Position numbers and translations under genes: made by a program
Part shown: piece after piece, positions 336-21,817 of the stretch
Layout of the letters: every line of letters begins with the position of its first letter
How positions within the stretch are numbered: position 1 is the first letter of the stretch
The notes under the pieces: model-generated
The model's database searches: none
Seen by the model: only the letters and a program-made list of their open reading frames with translations
Told to the model about the DNA's origin: nothing
Virus record (IMG/VR): IMGVR_UViG_3300009168_000064
Location: 1 to 43,289 of that record
Strand: one strand, 5' to 3'
Source: a virus
Length of the DNA stretch: 43,289 nucleotides

Positions 336-2993
336 TCAACCATTCGTTGCTTCATCCAATGTACTAAGTGATACACCCAATGCTTTAGCTACATCAGCTC
401 TAGTAGCACCAGATGCTAGCATAGATGCTGCTCTCTTAGTCTTAGCTGGTGTCATCAAGTAAACTTCATGTGGTGTAGCCAGCTTCTTAACTATCTCCAT
501 GTCGGCATTGCTAAGTATCTCGGTAAGCTTATGATCACTGATAGCCCCTGCTTGAATAGCATCCCATTGTTCTTGACTTATCTTGATTTGGGCCTTCTTA
601 GAACCGGTCTCAACACGAGCCTGCTCAAGAGACAACATCTTAATCTTGTTTAGTGTATCTTCATCCATGTTAGGATCATCGTTTCTCTTAGCTTTGATCC
701 TACTACTAGCAATGATTTGTGCCTGGCGCTCAAGGGGGCGTGCCTTCTTTGCTACGAATAGGGCGGCATCTAATTCCTCTACCTGTTTTGCATAGGTCTT
801 CTTAGCAGAGGGCACCCATACGGAGCGGGGGGTATTTTCAGCTTCAAGGCGGGCCTGGTTAGACATCTTCTTAAGCTTATTAGAATGATCGGCATAGAGA
901 CGTTCCATCTGTGTACCCGATGTAGTAGACATAAGTGTACGAGCATCGGTTGTTTCAGCTATCTTAGTACTCTTTGTAGTCCTTGGCTTACCTGTTCTAA
1001 AGTTTACCTTATTGGTGGGCTCATATCGAATCTCACCAGTAACCTTGTCAACAGGGCCGCCTTCTTTGTATGACCTAAGCTTCCTTTGTGGTACATACTC
1101 TGGTGACCTAGCCCTTGACAACAGGGTTGCTGCACCACCCTTAGCACTACCCTGATACTTCTGCTTTAGTTCTTTAATTCCATTATCATCATATGATTGC
1201 TTGTAATTAAGCTCATGCTTTTCAGCGTCAATAACAACCATCGAATGCTTAACAGCTCTAGTGATGTGATTAATAGGGGCGCCTTTAATGGACATGTCTG
1301 TAATAAGATTAGAAATCAAACCCATTTCTGTTTGGGTGTTTGACATTACTTTCATACCCTCATACTTTGGGTACGTTGCACGAGGGTCGAAGTTCATAAG
1401 TTCTTTAATAGCAGCTGTTGTATTAACATGACGCTGGTTGTTTGGTATCACAAGTACTGTGTCACCATCGAAGTCTGCGCCTGACAGTCTTCTTGCTACC
1501 TCATGGTTAATACCAATAGCATCGATTGTTTTAGAACTACCAAGAAGTCTTTTTGATTCAGCATGATTATTGTTTACTGTAAGTTCAGGGATTTCAAATG
1601 TGCCACCATGTGGGTGACGAATCAATACTACCTTTTCACCATGAAGAAAGGATGGTGCATATACCTGAGTTGGAGGTAGTGTAGATATTGGAAGAATAAC
1701 ATGCACACCTTGACGTGGTAATGCTGCAGCCTTAAGATGCACTGAAGCAGATGCTGTTTCTTCAGCGAATTCATTAAGCAACTTCTTACGAACAGCAGCA
1801 TTAGTAAGATCTTGAATACCCTTCAATTTCATTTGACGTTGTTCATGAGTCATGTCAAGCTGTGTCTTAGCAAGAGCAGGACTTTGTTTCGACAACATCT
1901 GAGAAGATAGGTTACGAGACCACTCGTTCCAATTGCCTTCTTCATTAACAATATTCATAGCCGAAGTAACTTTTTCGTTAGGTGTGCCTTTGTTATCAAC
2001 GATTTGACGAACCATAGATCCAAAAGGATTATCTTCATCTGCTTTGATTTCTTTCATAGCATCAAGTTTATTAGGCGAATCGCTTTTCTTTTTACTGGTA
2101 TGAAATTGGACATCTACTCCATCCGGTAGATCATCCTTGTACATGGCCATACCTTTTAGATAATGATTCTTACCAACAGCTACACGAACTTGAGCATAGT
2201 TCTTTCCACCCAACTCAACATCTTTAACGCCTCGCCTTACATAAATCATACCATCGGCGTCGCCGCCACCATCTTCTGCAAAAACAACATCAACCCGTTT
2301 TGGGTTAATTTGAAGAGGCGGATGCAAGCCATAGAAGTTTCTACCATGATCATCAGAAAACTGTTCAATGTGCTTAATCTTAGTTGGGTCCAGAAATATT
2401 TCTCTTTGCTTACTTCCAGGAGTACCAAGAACTTTCATGTTTGTATACTGTCCAGTACTAACTTGCTGTAATTTTAAATAATGCGTTTCATATCCTTCAT
2501 TATTTAATACCTGGACTGCAGTATCCATCATAGTTCTTGATACACCAGTACTATTCTCTACACCACTACCAATATCAATGAACCCATGCTTATCAACTTC
2601 TTCTCGCAACATCTTTGCTGTCGCCTGAAGATTGTCTGATTTATCAGCAGCGCCAGTAGCAAGAAGTGCTCTTACTGATGATTCATTCTTTCCCATCTTC
2701 TCACCAATAGCTACGTTTGAATATCCTTTATCCTTTAGTTTTTGTGCTTCTGTAATATCTTTTTGTCTTTGGTGATGTCTAGCAATAGACTTTTCTGCAC
2801 GATATTCTTTTTGAGACATATGAAGACCTTTAGCAATTAGAGCATCACTGAGTCCTTGACTTTTCATTTCTGAAATATAATCCAACAGATTCCTGTTATG
2901 GGTGTTTTCGTTTTCTCCAGATCCCCATGGATAACGCCCCGACCTACGAATAACACCATAATGCGCTAAATATTCTTCTTCCGTAATAAGCAT
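336..2993 (-). CDS. single-chain double-psi beta-barrel RNA polymerase
   Basis: An 885-residue protein with the signature of the two-barrel RNA polymerase superfamily. 'SGADFDGDTVLV' near residue 507 matches the Mg-binding D-x-D-G-D loop of beta-prime. It is preceded, as in beta-prime, by a 'VVLIRHP' strand and followed by a conserved helix region 'MSNTQTEMGLISNL'. Further upstream, 'LKGMAMYKDDLPDGVDVQF' (about 280-300) resembles the first barrel, that of beta. Known relatives include YonO of SPbeta and crAss-like phage polymerases. Helix-turn-helix-like stretches lie near residues 50-75 and 85-112 and at the extreme C-terminus. The N-terminus carries HYGVIRRSGRYPWGSG, related to a motif in two packaging-module proteins. 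ATG at 2993 has GGGGG upstream; 2999 and GTG 3002 are alternatives. It probably transcribes phage genes, and delivery in the virion is possible. Confidence 0.85.
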   Translation of the reverse strand: MLITEEEYLAHYGVIRRSGRYPWGSGENENTHNRNLLDYISEMKSQGLSDALIAKGLHMSQKEYRAEKSIARHHQRQKDITEAQKLKDKGYSNVAIGEKMGKNESSVRALLATGAADKSDNLQATAKMLREEVDKHGFIDIGSGVENSTGVSRTMMDTAVQVLNNEGYETHYLKLQQVSTGQYTNMKVLGTPGSKQREIFLDPTKIKHIEQFSDDHGRNFYGLHPPLQINPKRVDVVFAEDGGGDADGMIYVRRGVKDVELGGKNYAQVRVAVGKNHYLKGMAMYKDDLPDGVDVQFHTSKKKSDSPNKLDAMKEIKADEDNPFGSMVRQIVDNKGTPNEKVTSAMNIVNEEGNWNEWSRNLSSQMLSKQSPALAKTQLDMTHEQRQMKLKGIQDLTNAAVRKKLLNEFAEETASASVHLKAAALPRQGVHVILPISTLPPTQVYAPSFLHGEKVVLIRHPHGGTFEIPELTVNNNHAESKRLLGSSKTIDAIGINHEVARRLSGADFDGDTVLVIPNNQRHVNTTAAIKELMNFDPRATYPKYEGMKVMSNTQTEMGLISNLITDMSIKGAPINHITRAVKHSMVVIDAEKHELNYKQSYDDNGIKELKQKYQGSAKGGAATLLSRARSPEYVPQRKLRSYKEGGPVDKVTGEIRYEPTNKVNFRTGKPRTTKSTKIAETTDARTLMSTTSGTQMERLYADHSNKLKKMSNQARLEAENTPRSVWVPSAKKTYAKQVEELDAALFVAKKARPLERQAQIIASSRIKAKRNDDPNMDEDTLNKIKMLSLEQARVETGSKKAQIKISQEQWDAIQAGAISDHKLTEILSNADMEIVKKLATPHEVYLMTPAKTKRAASMLASGATRADVAKALGVSLSTLDEATNG

Positions 2994-3123
2994 GAGCATC
3001 ACCCCCTTCTTTTACCAAAGATGCGACCCATTTGAAAAACACAAGCGAACCTACTATCACACACAAAAACACAATAACACATGCGGTCACTAGCAGTATG
3101 TAGTAGATAAGCTTCGATCGCAC
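2944..3123 (-). CDS. small single-span membrane protein
   Basis: A 59-residue reading frame starting at GTG with GGGAG seven bases upstream. After a short basic start (RSK) comes a long hydrophobic segment, YYILLVTACVIVFLCVIVG, then a basic tail, as expected of a bitopic inner-membrane protein. Its last 17 codons overlap the start of the RNA polymerase gene in another frame, so translation may be coupled. It fills an otherwise empty gap between nuclease and polymerase. No family recognised; a holin-like or regulatory role is only a guess. Confidence 0.5.
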   Translation of the reverse strand: MRSKLIYYILLVTACVIVFLCVIVGSLVFFKWVASLVKEGGDAHAYYGRRIFSALWCYS

Positions 3124-8735: not shown

Positions 8736-8937
8736 TGGGGTATGTCCCCTCCGGTTTAACAACGAGTGCGGTTTTTTGTTTACCTGAACATCGGCTGATC
8801 ACGACCGATGCGTTCTGTGTAGCCTTCACAGTCAACCCAGGGCGGTCTGACAAATATTCACGCAAAGCGGCAACTAAACGTAAATACCCACAGACAGTAA
8901 GACTTCTACTTTGAGGAGTGCGAGCTCTCACAAGCAC
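8710..8937 (-). CDS. possible 75-residue protein
   Basis: GTG start at 8937 without a clear ribosome site. The protein has a plausible helix-strand pattern (LRLVAALREYLSDRPGLTVKA, then ASVVISRC, TALVVKPEG) and is compositionally like a real product. No family recognised. An inverted repeat (CTTAG...CTAAG, about 8950-8970) lies just upstream and could be regulatory. Confidence 0.45.
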   Translation of the reverse strand: MLVRARTPQSRSLTVCGYLRLVAALREYLSDRPGLTVKATQNASVVISRCSGKQKTALVVKPEGTYPNGPEATRI

Positions 8938-8991
8938 TGGGTAGTGGTCTTAGCGCCCTGACGCTCTAAGCCTAATGCGGTTTAACGTCGC

Positions 8992-9192
8992 TTAGTCGAC
9001 GGATTTAACTGTCCATTCACTAATATCAAGAATTCTCGAAATAGCAAGATTGGACCAGCCTCTTTTCCTCATTTCTATAATTTGAGAACGACGAAGTGCT
9101 TTTTGTTCGTCCTTTGCATTAATTCGTTCTTTTTTGAAATCTGAAGCTGATTTACCTAATGCTTCTGAAATTTCTCGATTAGTTTTTTCCAT
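8992..9192 (-). CDS. small helix-turn-helix protein
   Basis: 66 residues from ATG at 9192. The last 32 residues, RRSQIIEMRKRGWSNLAISR followed by ILDISEWTVKSV, form a resolvase/MarR-like helix-turn-helix (G-W-S-x-x-x-I-S-x-x-L-x-x-S-x-x-T-V). The preceding part is a charged helix. The start overlaps the end of the micro-gene at 9179. It could regulate phage transcription; as the only stand-alone HTH protein seen here, it is a candidate binder of the promoter family. Confidence 0.65.
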   Translation of the reverse strand: MEKTNREISEALGKSASDFKKERINAKDEQKALRRSQIIEMRKRGWSNLAISRILDISEWTVKSVD

Positions 9193-9549: not shown

Positions 9550-9664
9550 GATTCTCCGAAAAAGAAAATGAGAAGAGTCCGCTAATGACGCCGCCCAACT
9601 GGTAAACATCCTTGTCTGCACGAGGTACCGTGCGTACAATCCTGTACTTCAGTCGTTTCATCAT
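9533..9664 (-). CDS. possible leader peptide inside leader C
   Basis: A 43-codon frame starting ATGATGAAACG shortly after the predicted transcript start and running through the whole terminator hairpin into the next gene. It begins basic (MMKRLKYRIVRTVPR). It has no convincing Shine-Dalgarno except a weak GAAGAG near the RNA 5' end. If translated, ribosomes would melt the terminator, a classic attenuation geometry. Confidence 0.3.
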   Translation of the reverse strand: MMKRLKYRIVRTVPRADKDVYQLGGVISGLFSFSFSENHGTDG

Positions 9665-9680
9665 TAAACGAACTCTTCTC
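9558..9680 (-). ncRNA. closed leader RNA C (attenuator or small RNA)
   Basis: The sequence right after the -10-like box of promoter C (GAGAAGAGTTCG, 9680-9669) is complementary, with one mismatch, to CGGACTCTTCTC (9581-9570), which is followed by ATTTTCTTTTT. The predicted RNA of about 120 bases would be closed end to end and terminate before the gene at 9549. Confidence 0.65.
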
Positions 9681-9705
9681 ATTATAACCCGTGTAAAACC
9701 TGCGA
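9677..9705 (-). promoter_or_regulatory. phage promoter family, copy C
   Basis: Minus-strand TCGCAGG, TTTTACA block, TTATAAT then GAGA, standard spacing. It begins one base beyond the stop codon of the gene at 9707. Confidence 0.8.
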
Positions 9706-18882: not shown

Positions 18883-19072
18883 TTTTTTCATTCAGTTTTT
18901 TCACTTCGAGCAAATATGTAACTATTGTGTTATACAACAGACGTCCTGCCATGTTTGCGACTACCATATAAACAAATACTTTACGAAGTTGACGCTTATC
19001 CCAATTGACGTTAATGTCAAATCTCGCATCATTAAGCAAATCAATAAGAACTTTACGCTCTGCTTCATCCAT
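18869..19072 (-). CDS. small membrane protein
   Basis: 67 residues. A charged helix (MDEAERKVLIDLLNDARFD) is followed by a moderately hydrophobic segment, RKVFVYMVVANMAGRLLYNT, and a charged C-terminal helix. Its start overlaps the end of the gene at 19065 by eight bases. It lies in the operon that begins at promoter copy E. Unrecognised. Confidence 0.65.
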   Translation of the reverse strand: MDEAERKVLIDLLNDARFDINVNWDKRQLRKVFVYMVVANMAGRLLYNTIVTYLLEVKKLNEKNDAV

Positions 19073-19301
19073 GGTTTCCCTCGCAAGTCTCGCAGTTAGC
19101 CTGAGTCCACTCGCTCAGCCACTTTTCACACCAGGCATCCCAGCCACCAGCCAGAGTGACTCCACGCTGCTTGGCTTTGCCAGGCTGAATATGAATCCCT
19201 GATTGCGCAGGAATCAACTTAGCAATATCGCCAAGGAGGTTTGCGGCCATAGCAACATCACCATTAGTGCCTTTGAGGTGAATTGTCATTTTAAGTTGCA
19301 C
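19065..19301 (-). CDS. small cysteine-containing hypothetical protein
   Basis: 78 residues, starting at GTG 19301 with AAAGGA six bases upstream. 'GGWDAWCEKWLSEWTQANCETCEGNHG' at the C-terminus has three cysteines and a terminal His, which could bind metal; the N-terminus resembles a small alpha/beta fold. First gene after promoter copy E and its closed leader RNA, so its expression would depend on reading through that terminator. Confidence 0.62.
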   Translation of the reverse strand: MQLKMTIHLKGTNGDVAMAANLLGDIAKLIPAQSGIHIQPGKAKQRGVTLAGGWDAWCEKWLSEWTQANCETCEGNHG

Positions 19302-19321
19302 TATTAATCCTTTCGAATCAG

Positions 19322-19420
19322 AAAAAAATAAAATGAGAGACTAGGGTTCACAGCCCATCGAAAACTGTGTACCGGGTGGGTTGGTAAACGTACCAACGCC
19401 TTCGTGTCTCACCCTCTCTC
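19322..19420 (-). ncRNA. closed leader RNA E (attenuator or small RNA)
   Basis: GAGAGAGGG (19420-19412), directly after the -10-like box, pairs with CCC-TAG-TCTCTC (19346-19335), followed by ATTTTATTTTTTT. Inside lies a perfect seven-pair hairpin, GTTGGTA/TACCAAC (19380-19397). The predicted RNA is about 95 bases and ends before the gene at 19301. Confidence 0.68.
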
Positions 19421-19445
19421 ATTATAATACATGTAAAACTTGCGA
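19417..19445 (-). promoter_or_regulatory. phage promoter family, copy E
   Basis: Minus-strand TCGCAAG, TTTTACATG block, TTATAAT then GAGAGA, standard spacing. It starts six bases past the Rpf-like gene. Confidence 0.82.
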
Positions 19446-19451
19446 GGTTAG

Positions 19452-20030
19452 TTAGCAAGCACTCCAATTGGAACAACCTGCTCCATTCGCCCATACTTCC
19501 GCTGCCCTGGCGTCCTGAACATCCTCAGGAGCATCAGAGGCATGGGAATATCCTCCGTAACCACCCCACGTGCCATCAATGAATTGCCACTTGCCCGATG
19601 CAGTGGAGACAGGATTCTCGGCACGAATATCACCACCTGACTCACGTTGCATTACGTAACAAGGAGGAAGGTTACCTCCACAGGTACCATTACCAGGCTC
19701 TGAAGCCCTTCTGTTACCACCCGTACGTTCTACAGCGTCAGCCACTCTCGATCGTTGTTGCTCATCGTACTGAGCCTGCTCCAGCATTGCAGCATAGACA
19801 GCGGCTTGAAAATTAACGGCCTGAACATATTGAAAACGTGCTACGTCTCTGAGATACTCTCGGCGCTCAAGGATCATAGCCTTCTCTTGATCAGGCGTTA
19901 ACGTTTCCCCAGCATACGTAAGAATCTTTTCGTTTTTTTCGGTTTCTTGTTTGGGTTCCTCGGCTTGTGCAGCAAAGGCTACGCCCATAGTAATAAGTAA
20001 CAAAAGTACTAGGCTGAAATATCGCTTCAT
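19452..20030 (-). CDS. Rpf-like transglycosylase, secreted
   Basis: 192 residues. Signal peptide MKRYFSLVLLLLITMGVAFA with a probable cut near AQA-E. Residues 40-100 form a long helical region. The C-terminal domain (about 117-192), CYVMQRESGGDIRAENP then ASGKWQFIDGTWGGYGGY, is the transglycosylase-like domain of resuscitation-promoting factors, with predicted catalytic Glu130 and cysteines C124, C187 and C192. These enzymes cut actinobacterial peptidoglycan. A signal peptide suggests secretion by the host, for lysis or late wall remodelling. ATG has AAAGGAG six bases upstream. It follows promoter copy F and a closed leader bearing tandem repeats. Confidence 0.85.
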   Translation of the reverse strand: MKRYFSLVLLLLITMGVAFAAQAEEPKQETEKNEKILTYAGETLTPDQEKAMILERREYLRDVARFQYVQAVNFQAAVYAAMLEQAQYDEQQRSRVADAVERTGGNRRASEPGNGTCGGNLPPCYVMQRESGGDIRAENPVSTASGKWQFIDGTWGGYGGYSHASDAPEDVQDARAAEVWANGAGCSNWSAC

Positions 20031-20047
20031 GTTTTGCTCCTTTGTCG

Positions 20048-20161
20048 AGAAAAAGAGAGTGTATGTTGCAGTGTGCTCCCAATGTGAACTTTGTTATCGT
20101 TCACTGCATTAGTGTGCCCCCAATGGGGACTTTGTTATCGGTCACTAACCATACATCTCTC
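20048..20161 (-). ncRNA. closed leader RNA F with two 36-base modules
   Basis: GAGAGATGTATG (20161-20150), directly after the -10-like box, pairs with CATACACTCTC (20065-20055), leaving one bulged A; TTTTTCTC follows. Between the arms are two 36-base hairpin modules. The RNA would end about 20 bases before the Rpf-like gene. Confidence 0.72.
20070..20146 (-). repeat. two tandem 36-base hairpin modules
   Basis: Copies at 20111-20146 and 20070-20105 separated by five bases. In RNA both run AGTGA.CGATAACAAAG, a variable hairpin (CCCC-ATT-GGGG in the first), then GCACACT. AGTG and CACT can close each module. They differ in only a few positions. Confidence 0.8.
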
Positions 20162-20186
20162 ATTATAACCTGTGTAAAACTTGCGA
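20158..20186 (-). promoter_or_regulatory. phage promoter family, copy F
   Basis: Minus-strand TCGCAAG, TTTTACACA block, TTATAAT then GAGAGA, standard spacing. Confidence 0.82.
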
Positions 20187-20189
20187 GCG

Positions 20190-20217
20190 AAAAGGAAAGC
20201 CCCCGTAGGGACTCTCC
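20190..20217 (-). terminator. intrinsic terminator
   Basis: Minus-strand GGAGAGTCCC / GGGGCTTTCC with loop TACG, then TTTT. It ends the gene at 20220 and abuts promoter copy F. Confidence 0.8.
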
Positions 20218-20219
20218 GA

Positions 20220-20663
20220 TTATTCAGGCACATAATCACTTACCCGCTTGAATGTATGCCCATTTACATGTTCTCGTCTTCCATTCAAATGATCTGATAC
20301 TTTTGTAACACTAGCTCCAACAGATCTTGCCGCTAGGCTTTCACTTTCAAACCTTTTCCAAGTCGTCGTATCCACGACTGGAGTTCCAGGTCGGCCAATA
20401 ACGTTCCCATACTGGGAAATCGTTTGATATGTGTTATTATGAACAGTAGGTTTGTAATTAGCTAAGAGCCTTTGTTTGATTGAAATCAAAACATGCTCTT
20501 CCATTTCCATATCTGTCATTCCATACTTACGCATTATAAATAGTGCAGTAATTATTGAACCTGTGACTATACCAATAGTCGTTCCAATATAAATTTTCTT
20601 GTTATCCTTAATGTGTTGCTTAAATTTTTCGATTTTTGTTAATTCTGTTTCTTCAAATTCCAT
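20220..20663 (-). CDS. membrane protein with NUMOD1-like C-terminal domain
   Basis: 147 residues. Charged N-terminal helix, one membrane segment (IYIGTTIGIVTGSIITALFIM), a linker, then 'VVDTTTWKRFESESLAARSV' followed by 'GASVTKVSDHLNGRREHVNG', the NUMOD1/intron-endonuclease-type HTH pattern (F-x-S-x-x-x-A-A-x-x-x-G-x-x-x-x-x-x-x-H-L-x-G). Joining a DNA-binding-like module to a membrane anchor is unusual; it might tether phage DNA to the membrane. TAGGAG precedes ATG. It has its own promoter (copy G) and terminator. Confidence 0.68.
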   Translation of the reverse strand: MEFEETELTKIEKFKQHIKDNKKIYIGTTIGIVTGSIITALFIMRKYGMTDMEMEEHVLISIKQRLLANYKPTVHNNTYQTISQYGNVIGRPGTPVVDTTTWKRFESESLAARSVGASVTKVSDHLNGRREHVNGHTFKRVSDYVPE

Positions 20664-20694
20664 TTCATCTCCTATGTAGCTTATATTAAGAATG

Positions 20695-20723
20695 TCTCAT
20701 TATAAGCCATGTTTAGACTGCGA
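20695..20723 (-). promoter_or_regulatory. phage promoter family, copy G
   Basis: Minus-strand TCGCAG, CTAAACATG block, TTATAAT then GAGA, standard spacing. Its upstream edge merges with the T run ending leader RNA H. The leader to the gene at 20663 is open. Confidence 0.78.
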
Positions 20724-20824
20724 AAAAAAAAAGAGTGAGAGGATTCAGTGTGCCTGCAAACGCAAGCTTTTGCACTCATTAGTGTGCCTGCAAACGCAAG
20801 CTTTTGCACTAATCTTATCCTCTC
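20721..20824 (-). ncRNA. closed stand-alone small RNA H with two 30-base modules
   Basis: GAGAGGAT (20824-20817), directly after the -10-like box, pairs perfectly with ATCCTCTC (20744-20737), followed by ACTC and ten T. No gene lies between this RNA and the next promoter (copy G), so its predicted product is a free small RNA of about 95 bases rather than an mRNA leader. Confidence 0.75.
20747..20810 (-). repeat. two identical tandem 30-base hairpin modules
   Basis: Copies at 20781-20810 and 20747-20776 are identical and separated by four bases. In RNA each is AGTG, a hairpin (CAAAAGC/GCGTTTG with one mismatch), CAG and GCACACT. The AGTG...GCACACT ends match the modules of leader F, although the centres differ. 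Confidence 0.85.
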
Positions 20825-20849
20825 ATTATAACCCATGTAAAACTTGCGA
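20821..20849 (-). promoter_or_regulatory. phage promoter family, copy H
   Basis: Minus-strand TCGCAAG, TTTTACATGGG, TTATAAT then GAGAGG; the closest match to the family consensus. Confidence 0.82.
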
Positions 20850-21027
20850 CCTCTTTTGGAAAGTCTCCCCCGGGAAATTTTCGACCTTGAAAATGGCAAA
20901 ATCGTCTGAGAGGCCTCTATTTCGCGTTCTGAGACGTCGACCCCCCTATCCGGGGCAAATATACCAGCCACGATCCAAAAATGGCTTAGAAGGCTACACA
21001 GAGGGGTCAGAAAAATAGAACATATGG
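20850..21027. other. non-coding region upstream of promoter H
   Basis: Part of the longest gene-free stretch (20664-21101), which otherwise holds promoters G and H, RNA H and a terminator. This 178-base part has no convincing gene. It has several restriction-site-like palindromes (CCCGGG, AGGCCT, GACGTC, GTCGAC) and a 21-base sequence repeated at 29610. Confidence 0.4.
20861..20881. repeat. 21-base repeat, copy 1 (non-coding)
   Basis: AAGT(C)TCCCCCGGG(A)AATTTT; 19 of 21 bases match the sequence at 29610-29630. A third, weaker match (CTACCCCCGGGGCATTTTT) lies at the right end of the window. Confidence 0.6.
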
Positions 21028-21081
21028 TAAAAATGCGAAAACATAGGAACCATGTAAGATTTCTCTCACACAATTCCTATG
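21028..21081 (-). terminator. probable intrinsic terminator, long loop
   Basis: Minus-strand CATAGGAA (21081-21074) pairs with TTCCTATG (21049-21042), with a 24-base loop, then TTTTCGCATTTTT. It follows the gene at 21102. Confidence 0.6.
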
Positions 21082-21101
21082 CTTTCTCTACAATTCCGAC
21101 A

Positions 21102-21395
21102 TTATGGTTGATTTCTTGTCTTCATGATGAAGCCAACTGCTCGTGACACCATTACGTGCTTCTGCTCGTATGCCACGATGATCAGAATGCCGAGAAGATT
21201 TCCCGCCACTATGGCCATCGTATCCGGACTGACTCGGCTGCTTTTTTCGTCTTTCAGCCGAACCAATCGTTCAAGATTGCCCAGTAGCGCAGAATATTCC
21301 TCGCTATCCGGATCGCTCGTGCTCATCTCGACCAGAACCTTGTTAATTGGTTCCTCGAGAATTGACTCCTTCTTCTTAAAAAAGTTCCTCAACAC
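21102..21395 (-). CDS. small membrane protein, conserved in phages
   Basis: 97 residues from GTG at 21395 with AGAGGA six bases upstream. Basic start (LRNFFKKK), acidic helix 'STSDPDSEEYSALLGNLERLVRLKDEKS', then one membrane segment VSPDTMAIVAGNLLGILIIVAYE and a basic tail. I recall the 'PDSEEY..LL..L..L...K...VSPDT...V..NLLGI' pattern in other phage membrane proteins, function unknown. It has its own promoter (copy I) and a terminator. Confidence 0.72.
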   Translation of the reverse strand: MLRNFFKKKESILEEPINKVLVEMSTSDPDSEEYSALLGNLERLVRLKDEKSSRVSPDTMAIVAGNLLGILIIVAYEQKHVMVSRAVGFIMKTRNQP

Positions 21396-21414
21396 TAAAC
21401 ATCCTCTCTGTAGT

Positions 21415-21443
21415 TCTCAATATAACCCATGTTTAGTGTGCGA
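21415..21443 (-). promoter_or_regulatory. phage promoter family, copy I
   Basis: Minus-strand TCGCAC, CTAAACATGGG, TTATATT then GAGA, standard spacing; the -10-like box is TATATT. It lies immediately after the putative holin gene and is the rightmost copy. Confidence 0.72.
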
Positions 21444-21445
21444 GG

Positions 21446-21817
21446 TCAGTCATCTGTGTACGTGAAGTCTTGCTCATCAGTTATCTTGAACGTAACCGAA
21501 CGCATATGTTCAAGATCGTCCGGATCTATGTTCAATTCGAGCAAAAATACCTTTTTTCCGTCATCTTGCCTAATAACCAGTTGACCCTCGTGCGCAAGCG
21601 CATCGTGATATCGCTTTGAGCTGGCTTCGAGTAGCAAACCAAGAAAAAGCGTAAATAAGGAAATGGTGCCAAGTATGTTAACTACTCCTCGAGGGTCCCA
21701 GAACCATGAAATAACGAAATAGATAGATGCGTAAGCTGGAAGAATGACGTGAACCATGATAGTAGTCCACATGTAGCTACGAGAGTTCAAATATGACTTC
21801 GGTTTAGCTGCTTCCAT
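21446..21817 (-). CDS. putative holin or two-span membrane protein
   Basis: 123 residues. Two membrane segments (MWTTIMVHVILPAYASIYFVISWFW; VNILGTISLFTLFLGLLLEAS) separated by a short loop, then a soluble domain 'GQLVIRQDDGKKVFLLELNIDPDDLEHMRSVTFKI'. Layout and the C-terminal 'G....DDGKK.F.LEL..DP..L..M..V.FK' strand pattern resemble proteins placed after tail genes in other actinophages and sometimes called holins. AGGAG lies five bases before ATG. It directly follows the Gp37-like tail gene. Confidence 0.65.
   Translation of the reverse strand: MEAAKPKSYLNSRSYMWTTIMVHVILPAYASIYFVISWFWDPRGVVNILGTISLFTLFLGLLLEASSKRYHDALAHEGQLVIRQDDGKKVFLLELNIDPDDLEHMRSVTFKITDEQDFTYTDD

Follow-up and report, generated by a model that had tools for sequence, protein, structure and literature searches.

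The virus record IMGVR_UViG_3300009168_000064 of IMG/VR has 43,289 bases, and the whole of this stretch was analysed (the window). Its recognised genes, all on the minus strand, include terminase, portal, head, tape measure, holin and DNA primase/polymerase, and its DNA polymerase is closest to those of Gordonia phages (54–55% identity). Here we describe a small RNA gene of this phage, the twin-module RNA, and the adjacent gene for a small protein of NUMOD type. Read on the minus strand, the RNA gene consists of a promoter, an RNA of about 100 nucleotides (nt), a run of ten Ts and a second promoter. Its parts and the neighbouring gene are:

20821-20850, minus strand: promoter G of the twin-module RNA (matrix score 45.9; core matched with 0 mismatches).
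20817-20824, minus strand: 5' arm of the closing stem (GAGAGGAT), at the inferred transcript start near 20824 (sequence; pair probabilities 0.97–1.0).
20781-20810, minus strand: module 1, family A, composed of AGUG, CAAAA, GCUUGC, GUUU, GCAGGC, A and CACU (model R1, 48.4 bits, a match by construction since the window module is identical to a training row).
20747-20776, minus strand: module 2, the same as module 1 over all 30 nt (sequence, model R1).
20737-20744, minus strand: 3' arm of the closing stem (ATCCTCTC), doubling as terminator stem (sequence; 9-pair stem).
20723-20732, minus strand: T10 tract of the terminator (sequence).
20695-20724, minus strand: promoter H, ahead of the NUMOD-type protein gene and overlapping the end of the RNA unit (matrix score 38.0).
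20220-20663, minus strand: 147-amino-acid protein with an N-terminal hydrophobic helix and a C-terminal helix-turn-helix like that of I-HmuI and NUMOD domains.

The twin-module RNA gene is real and goes beyond chance. The 28-nt core of the module matches twice in the window, against 0.00 expected, and the RNA has a folding energy of −37.4 kcal/mol, against −23.3 ± 2.9 for shuffled sequences (z −4.93; 0 of 200 shuffles as good). An earlier sequence-only reading had described two identical 30-base modules inside a closing stem of eight pairs, which the sequence bears out; the stem has nine pairs if one extra A–T is counted. The same reading saw no gene between the two promoters, and we likewise found no open reading frame (ORF) with a ribosome site there, the only long frames being ones that also cross the promoters. 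The order it gave, H then terminator then G, is reversed. The actual direction is from right to left, from G through the RNA and terminator to H.

Relatives show which parts of the module are conserved. The consensus of module A is R-GUG-CAAAA-(stem 2)-loop-A-CAC-Y, in which GUG, CAC and the CAAAA/A internal loop are constant and stem 2 and the hairpin loop vary. In an alignment of 12 distinct rows, fitted to the structure, all 102 of 102 cells are paired and 25 changes are compensatory, compared with 7.9 ± 2.1 in shuffled alignments (0 of 500); the covariation score of this alignment is 0.533, and at most 0.120 when slid. The covariation fits a hairpin with an internal loop. Stem 2 contains G–U pairs, so RNA pairing fits better than a DNA dyad, and because of this pairing and the asymmetric conserved internal loop we take it that selection sees the RNA and not the repeat DNA. 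We rejected antisense or kissing-loop action, since the hairpin loops are not conserved.

Promoters G and H belong to a motif shared across the phage lineage. It occurs ten times on the minus strand of the window (4.8–21.4 kb) and zero times on the plus strand, and its core is matched 9 times where 0.16 are expected. With a re-estimated matrix we obtained 257 forward matches and 1 reverse match in 37 sources, which are the window and related loci (L numbers); these counts omit L014 (a near-copy of L011), L054, L025, L026, L028 and the chance loci of the two-CAAAA-module scan below. A ribosome site and ORF follow 145 of the forward promoters and do not follow the other 112. An automatic rule recognised a closing stem and T tract in 96 promoter units, 23 of which are coding leaders that the rule also picks up. 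The promoter is likewise one-sided (forward/reverse) in Streptomyces phage RosaAsantewaa (7/0), Gordonia phage Pherobrine (14/0) and Arthrobacter phage Circum (9/0), and was found in further Gordonia and Rhodococcus phages.

To the sequence-only reading we add that the element is not unique, as the same phage has three further ORF-less units:

20158-20187, minus strand: promoter of a second twin-module RNA (class B), 33 nt beyond the stop codon of the NUMOD-type protein (promoter matrix).
20049-20161, minus strand: class B twin-module RNA, modules at 20111-20146 and 20070-20105 (AGUG..GAUAACAAA..GCACACU; sequence).
19334-19422, minus strand: class I RNA of the same island, outside the protein–RNA pair (model R2, 78.1 bits, E 1e-20; a training row of R2).
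About 9569-9681: fourth closing-stem unit of the window (promoter motif and closing stem).

The class B RNA has a folding z of −4.66 (0 of 200 shuffles as good) and was also seen by eye in L044. The lineage has many stand-alone RNA genes without annotation, the twin-module RNA of class A among them.

Loss of the repeats in close relatives had been named as the result that would speak against a functional RNA, and the outcome is divided. The architecture is kept; the module class is swapped. Model R1, built from four variants of module A, finds family A in 7 of 47 sources: the window, L013, L016, L030, L015, L032 (E ≤ 0.04) and L009 (E 0.22). Its matches at L013 4843-4868 and in L053 are probably chance. 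A profile search of the genome records with R1 returned 4 of 47 at E ≤ 0.05, fewer than cmsearch, and missed L015 and L009. Scanning for two CAAAA modules gave 13 loci, of which 5, judged by eye, lie in closing-stem RNAs behind a promoter. Two of these (L025 and L028) correspond to the L015 element, and one (L026) to the L016 contig, leaving only L030 and L032 as new; the remaining 8 are unrelated sequence and were dropped. A pattern search of genome contigs added one distant locus from a metagenome-assembled genome. A module descriptor, composed after the modules had been seen, has 13 forward matches, 1 reverse match and 1.3 in shuffled sequence (37 sources). With blastn, window positions 20400-21200 had no match among phages and the twin-module RNA had none among plasmids.

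Relaxed forms of module A with other 5' loops (AAAAA, UAAAA, AUAAU) were recognised by eye in L011, L012 and L021 and three times in the cultured Arthrobacter phage Qui (L078 1047-1181). The annotated Qui gp76 overlies this three-module RNA and is probably not a gene. In three phages, class A RNAs with three hairpins adjoin RNAs of another class, T2 (L009 4875-5085, L015 4142-4370 and, on the reverse complement of its locus, L030 1865-2085). There the third hairpin is followed by a conserved CAAUGU.

The NUMOD-type protein family surfaced as a recurring small protein among the genes around ten tandem-module RNAs. A profile hidden Markov model built on nine copies gave 21 strong family matches with hmmsearch; start codons are uncertain for the members in L008, L021 and L061. 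The window protein matches phrog_27818 and, at E 1.9e-5 and just short of the curated cut-off, PF22083. Its N-terminal helix is probably of the membrane type, judging from its sequence. AlphaFold models the C-terminal domain at a predicted local distance difference test (pLDDT) of about 90 and the rest poorly. Foldseek matches for this domain were 8b6e, a DNA-binding protein, and I-HmuI (1u3e_M), at probability 1.00 although E was 0.063; the I-HmuI match has template modelling (TM) scores of 0.30/0.26 over just 51 aligned columns. No Kid-fold chain was among the best 50 of 95 structure matches of the protein, and a Pfam scan of the genes near the twin-module RNA found no Abi_2.

An RNA promoter lies near the NUMOD-type gene in 28 of 28 cases: 20 at the stop codon, 5 inside the ORF and 3 upstream. 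For the initial 21 family proteins, the RNA unit was at the stop codon, within the ORF or just upstream in all 21. Seven homologues were fetched after an RNA at the stop codon had been predicted, and in each of the seven a promoter overlaps or adjoins the stop codon, with a structured RNA behind it. They are the new records, not near-duplicates, among 26 given by a protein search; FortCran, Paella, duplicate records and second places in Avazak, Artorias and FortCran were left out. Eight records at ≥99% identity all carry the class F RNA (blastn). At 13 cultured Gordonia and Rhodococcus loci, an RNA unit follows 7 of 7 NUMOD-type genes and at most 14 of 394 other coding sequences; the hypergeometric P of 4e-10 for this link is nominal, as the phages are related. 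The tRNA-like and class I units of these loci do not directly follow the NUMOD-type gene.

RNA class also agrees with protein similarity. The classes were set by eye after the 21-row protein tree was known; on this assignment, 21 of 28 proteins share their RNA class with their closest match in the set (shuffled mean 3.0, maximum 12, 0 of 20,000). Once pairs above 60% identity are removed, 13 of 28 still do (shuffled mean 3.0, maximum 11, 0 of 20,000). The window protein was labelled class B, after its downstream RNA, although class A lies upstream. At 37% identity, the window and L044 proteins are both followed by class B RNA, and those of L015 and L030 both have class T2 beside them. Within a close group of classes F, G, U, K and Tw (29 and 7 non-independent pairs), likeness of the helix-turn-helix part is 0.47 between RNA classes versus 0.64 within them, while that of the preceding strand part is 0.81 versus 0.86. 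The divergence of the helix-turn-helix between RNA classes is a hint of recognition.

At several loci the promoter and closing-stem RNA lie inside the NUMOD-type ORF (L009 5261, L008 5101, L012 4843 and 15977, L015 5020, L013 5082). These embedded units sit between the hydrophobic helix and the helix-turn-helix, and the DNA there seemingly codes for protein and RNA together.

We propose that the twin-module RNA is the RNA half of a co-diversifying phage protein–RNA cassette and acts in trans by binding the NUMOD-type protein. From the sequence comparisons above we give this a probability of about 50%. The stand-alone RNA gene would be transcribed from the lineage promoter, its closing stem also serving as terminator. 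The tandem-hairpin RNA would then bind the protein in trans, one protein per hairpin module, recognition being at the internal loop (in class A, CAAAA facing A), and the pair would have diversified into many matching specificities. Binding could either neutralise the protein, as in AbiF–RCd22 and type III pairs, or build a membrane-tethered complex; our analysis leans slightly towards neutralisation or control. In the window, the class B RNA holds the canonical place after the protein, and the upstream class A RNA may either serve that protein as an additional RNA or have belonged with a protein since lost. For the cassette as a whole, gene anatomy, the conserved RNA fold, the constant adjacency and the match of RNA class to protein similarity are observed, and from them we infer transcription, binding, membrane insertion and mode of action. 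A more specific version is tentative, with odds well short of even: the NUMOD-type protein would be anchored in the membrane and read RNA, not DNA, through its helix-turn-helix, and with the tandem-hairpin RNA gene at its stop would define specificities like immunity groups for telling self from rival phages, in superinfection exclusion or phage–phage addiction.

Several observations weigh against the cassette, in addition to the late, by-eye assignment of classes. Some of the embedded RNA units were called by script alone. Shared descent of whole loci could yield part of the class agreement. The protein gene has class A, or the relaxed form, immediately beside it in the window, L016, L032, L011, L021, L012 and Qui; this is not so in L013, L009, L015 and L030. 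In L013 the protein is about 880 nt from the class A RNA with other genes between, and in the other three another RNA intervenes. The nearest protein neighbour of L016, a class A locus, is of class F. The RNAs of classes F, G and U are multi-hairpin and not clear tandem repeats. NUMOD-type domains are known as DNA binders. Finally, the RNAfold minimum for the window RNA alone pairs the AGUG and CACU arms across modules (−37.4 versus −31.4 kcal/mol for the modular fold). We prefer the modular fold because, in relatives with differing copies, 24 of 25 arm pairs form within modules, and first and last arms can pair in only 4 of 11.

Other explanations account for parts of these data. The sequence-only reading had suggested protein sequestration or a decoy. 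Sequestration fits the single associated family of small proteins, with the difference that the likeliest partner is the phage-encoded NUMOD-type protein and not a host protein. A decoy against a host or defence protein (an anti-CRISPR, or a sponge for a tRNA nuclease or RNA-binding protein), with the neighbouring protein merely accessory, is possible and in our view unlikely. It would suit a stand-alone, accessory unit whose class is swapped among relatives, in islands that also hold anticodon-less tRNA-like RNAs resembling mimics. It would not lead one to expect that the RNA is constantly linked to a single protein family or that RNA class tracks protein similarity, and the RNA has no Rfam match. 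We also find it improbable that the repeats are DNA operators, to which the helix-turn-helix protein binds behind the promoter to repress or block, the RNA being incidental. The resemblance of the C-terminal domain to the DNA-binding endonuclease I-HmuI and the position of the repeats, directly behind promoters and beside the protein gene, would agree with this. However, stem 2 varies freely with compensation and has G–U pairs, the loop is asymmetric (5 nt versus 1 nt), and an operator would need neither closing stem nor T tract.

Function in trans, as the sequence-only reading had it, gains from the stand-alone, ORF-less unit, the conserved fold with its compensatory changes and the varying neighbours. 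It is likelier than a leader or attenuator because neighbours differ in relatives and another stand-alone RNA often follows. A cis-acting leader, attenuator or insulator whose hairpins only tune read-through into the next gene is very unlikely: the terminator-like end and the location of units between genes are what one would expect of it, but a fresh promoter comes directly after the RNA here and in several relatives, and the loop sequence is conserved far beyond the needs of a terminator. Least probable of all is a small-molecule sponge or tandem aptamer, with a nucleotide or second messenger as the ligand of every CAAAA/A internal loop. Two or three copies of a conserved internal loop in variable stems are compatible with it; no Rfam riboswitch matches, and the protein link would be left unexplained.

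The cassette stands among other small RNAs in these phages. Among 47 sources, class I RNA is matched 23 times at E ≤ 0.1, with marginal scores at the weak end, and it is further present in ReqiPepy6, ReqiPoco6, Secretariat, Schwartz33 and Fazel. Its alignment of 14 sequences shows compensatory change in 13 of 20 pairs, and it carries a T-arm-like hairpin (GGUUCGAAUCC in L030; examples L066 1815-1925 and L030 3538-3653). A multi-hairpin RNA of class C (5 sequences) has compensatory change in 14 of 34 pairs. The tRNA-like stand-alone RNAs have D and T arms, a tetraloop replacing the anticodon loop and no visible CCA end (L058 8222-8308, L061 1133-1216, L062 2504-2587, L066 1957-2040, L067 5198-5290, L071 4693-4785). 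By blastn they occur in 32 Gordonia phage records and are annotated in none; ReqiPepy6 and ReqiPoco6 list 'tRNA-OTHER'. ARAGORN called no tRNA, either in the window or in the 8 submitted loci, tRNA-like RNAs among them.

At gathering thresholds, Rfam matched only the Pistol ribozyme in the window, 14 IMG/VR loci and 5 further loci (2 from IMG/VR, 3 from cultured phages). At E ≤ 10, positions 19000-21500 matched nothing except mir-2024 and sbrA; neither reached gathering, and both lie outside the twin-module RNA. Pistol lies at 8929-9001 on the minus strand of the window, downstream of the DNA polymerase gene. It has this place, often soon after a lineage promoter, in the window and in 9 of the 14 loci that were searched (L008 14988-15055, L012 14964-15025, L009 15749-15805, L011 14920-14970, L016 15588-15647, L013 14970-15029, L015 16144-16198, L021 15213-15284, L019 3592-3639). 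One further gene may bear on the shared promoter:

336-3002, minus strand: 888-amino-acid protein, phrog_4291 'RNA-dependent RNA polymerase', with a DFDGD motif.

This motif is similar to that of YonO-type single-chain RNA polymerases, and the protein is possibly the polymerase that reads the lineage promoter.

If the cassette is as proposed, Gordonia phages Pherobrine, Gill and Rickmore, Arthrobacter phage Qui and Rhodococcus phage ReqiPepy6 hold RNA genes and protein–RNA pairs that have so far been overlooked or wrongly annotated. An RNA partner would be at hand for a kind of domain familiar from DNA-binding homing endonucleases, and specificity studies would gain a natural series in which matched and mismatched combinations can be compared. 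It would also become possible to test the role of a phage region in which small uncharacterised proteins abound. We found no account of these RNAs or of the protein–RNA pair in open-licence PubMed Central literature, where results were mostly off-target; the RNA series is without a description in the literature searched and has a testable partner.

RNA-based anti-CRISPRs are solitary CRISPR-repeat mimics, and share with the twin-module RNA the trait of a stand-alone, repeat-like small RNA of a phage. Phage pseudo-ToxI decoy repeats are phage-encoded and bind a host toxin; such decoys target that toxin, whereas the twin-module RNA is without any Rfam match. I-HmuI (PDB 1u3e) has the C-terminal fold in common with the phage protein, which has an N-terminal hydrophobic helix in place of the nuclease part. 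The ToxN/Kid fold that marks type III toxin–antitoxin systems was not found among the best 50 of 95 structure matches of the neighbouring protein, which matches PF22083 and the I-HmuI fold. Because the protein differs from the partners in both known kinds of pair and no Rfam family matches, we file the cassette neither under type III nor under AbiF–RCd22. In the AbiF (Abi_2) pair of a Clostridioides difficile prophage, the non-coding RNA RCd22 is reported to bind its protein, with effects in cis as well as in trans (PMC12373285). Shared with that pair are a phage-borne protein gene and a structured RNA with two motif copies; AbiF is Abi_2/Cas13-like with toxicity and binding demonstrated, while the partner here is NUMOD-type and the pairing is read from sequence. 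In ToxIN, CptIN and TenpIN, a Kid-like ribonuclease toxin cuts the RNA into repeats, the solved repeats are H-type pseudoknots and the repeats precede the toxin gene (PMC4627078). Common to those systems and the phage units is a tandem-repeat RNA beside a protein gene, with cognate specificity, which is proposed for the phage units; unlike type III systems, the phage units combine a NUMOD-type protein with internal-loop hairpins, in an RNA that mostly follows the gene and has its own promoter (PMC4627078).
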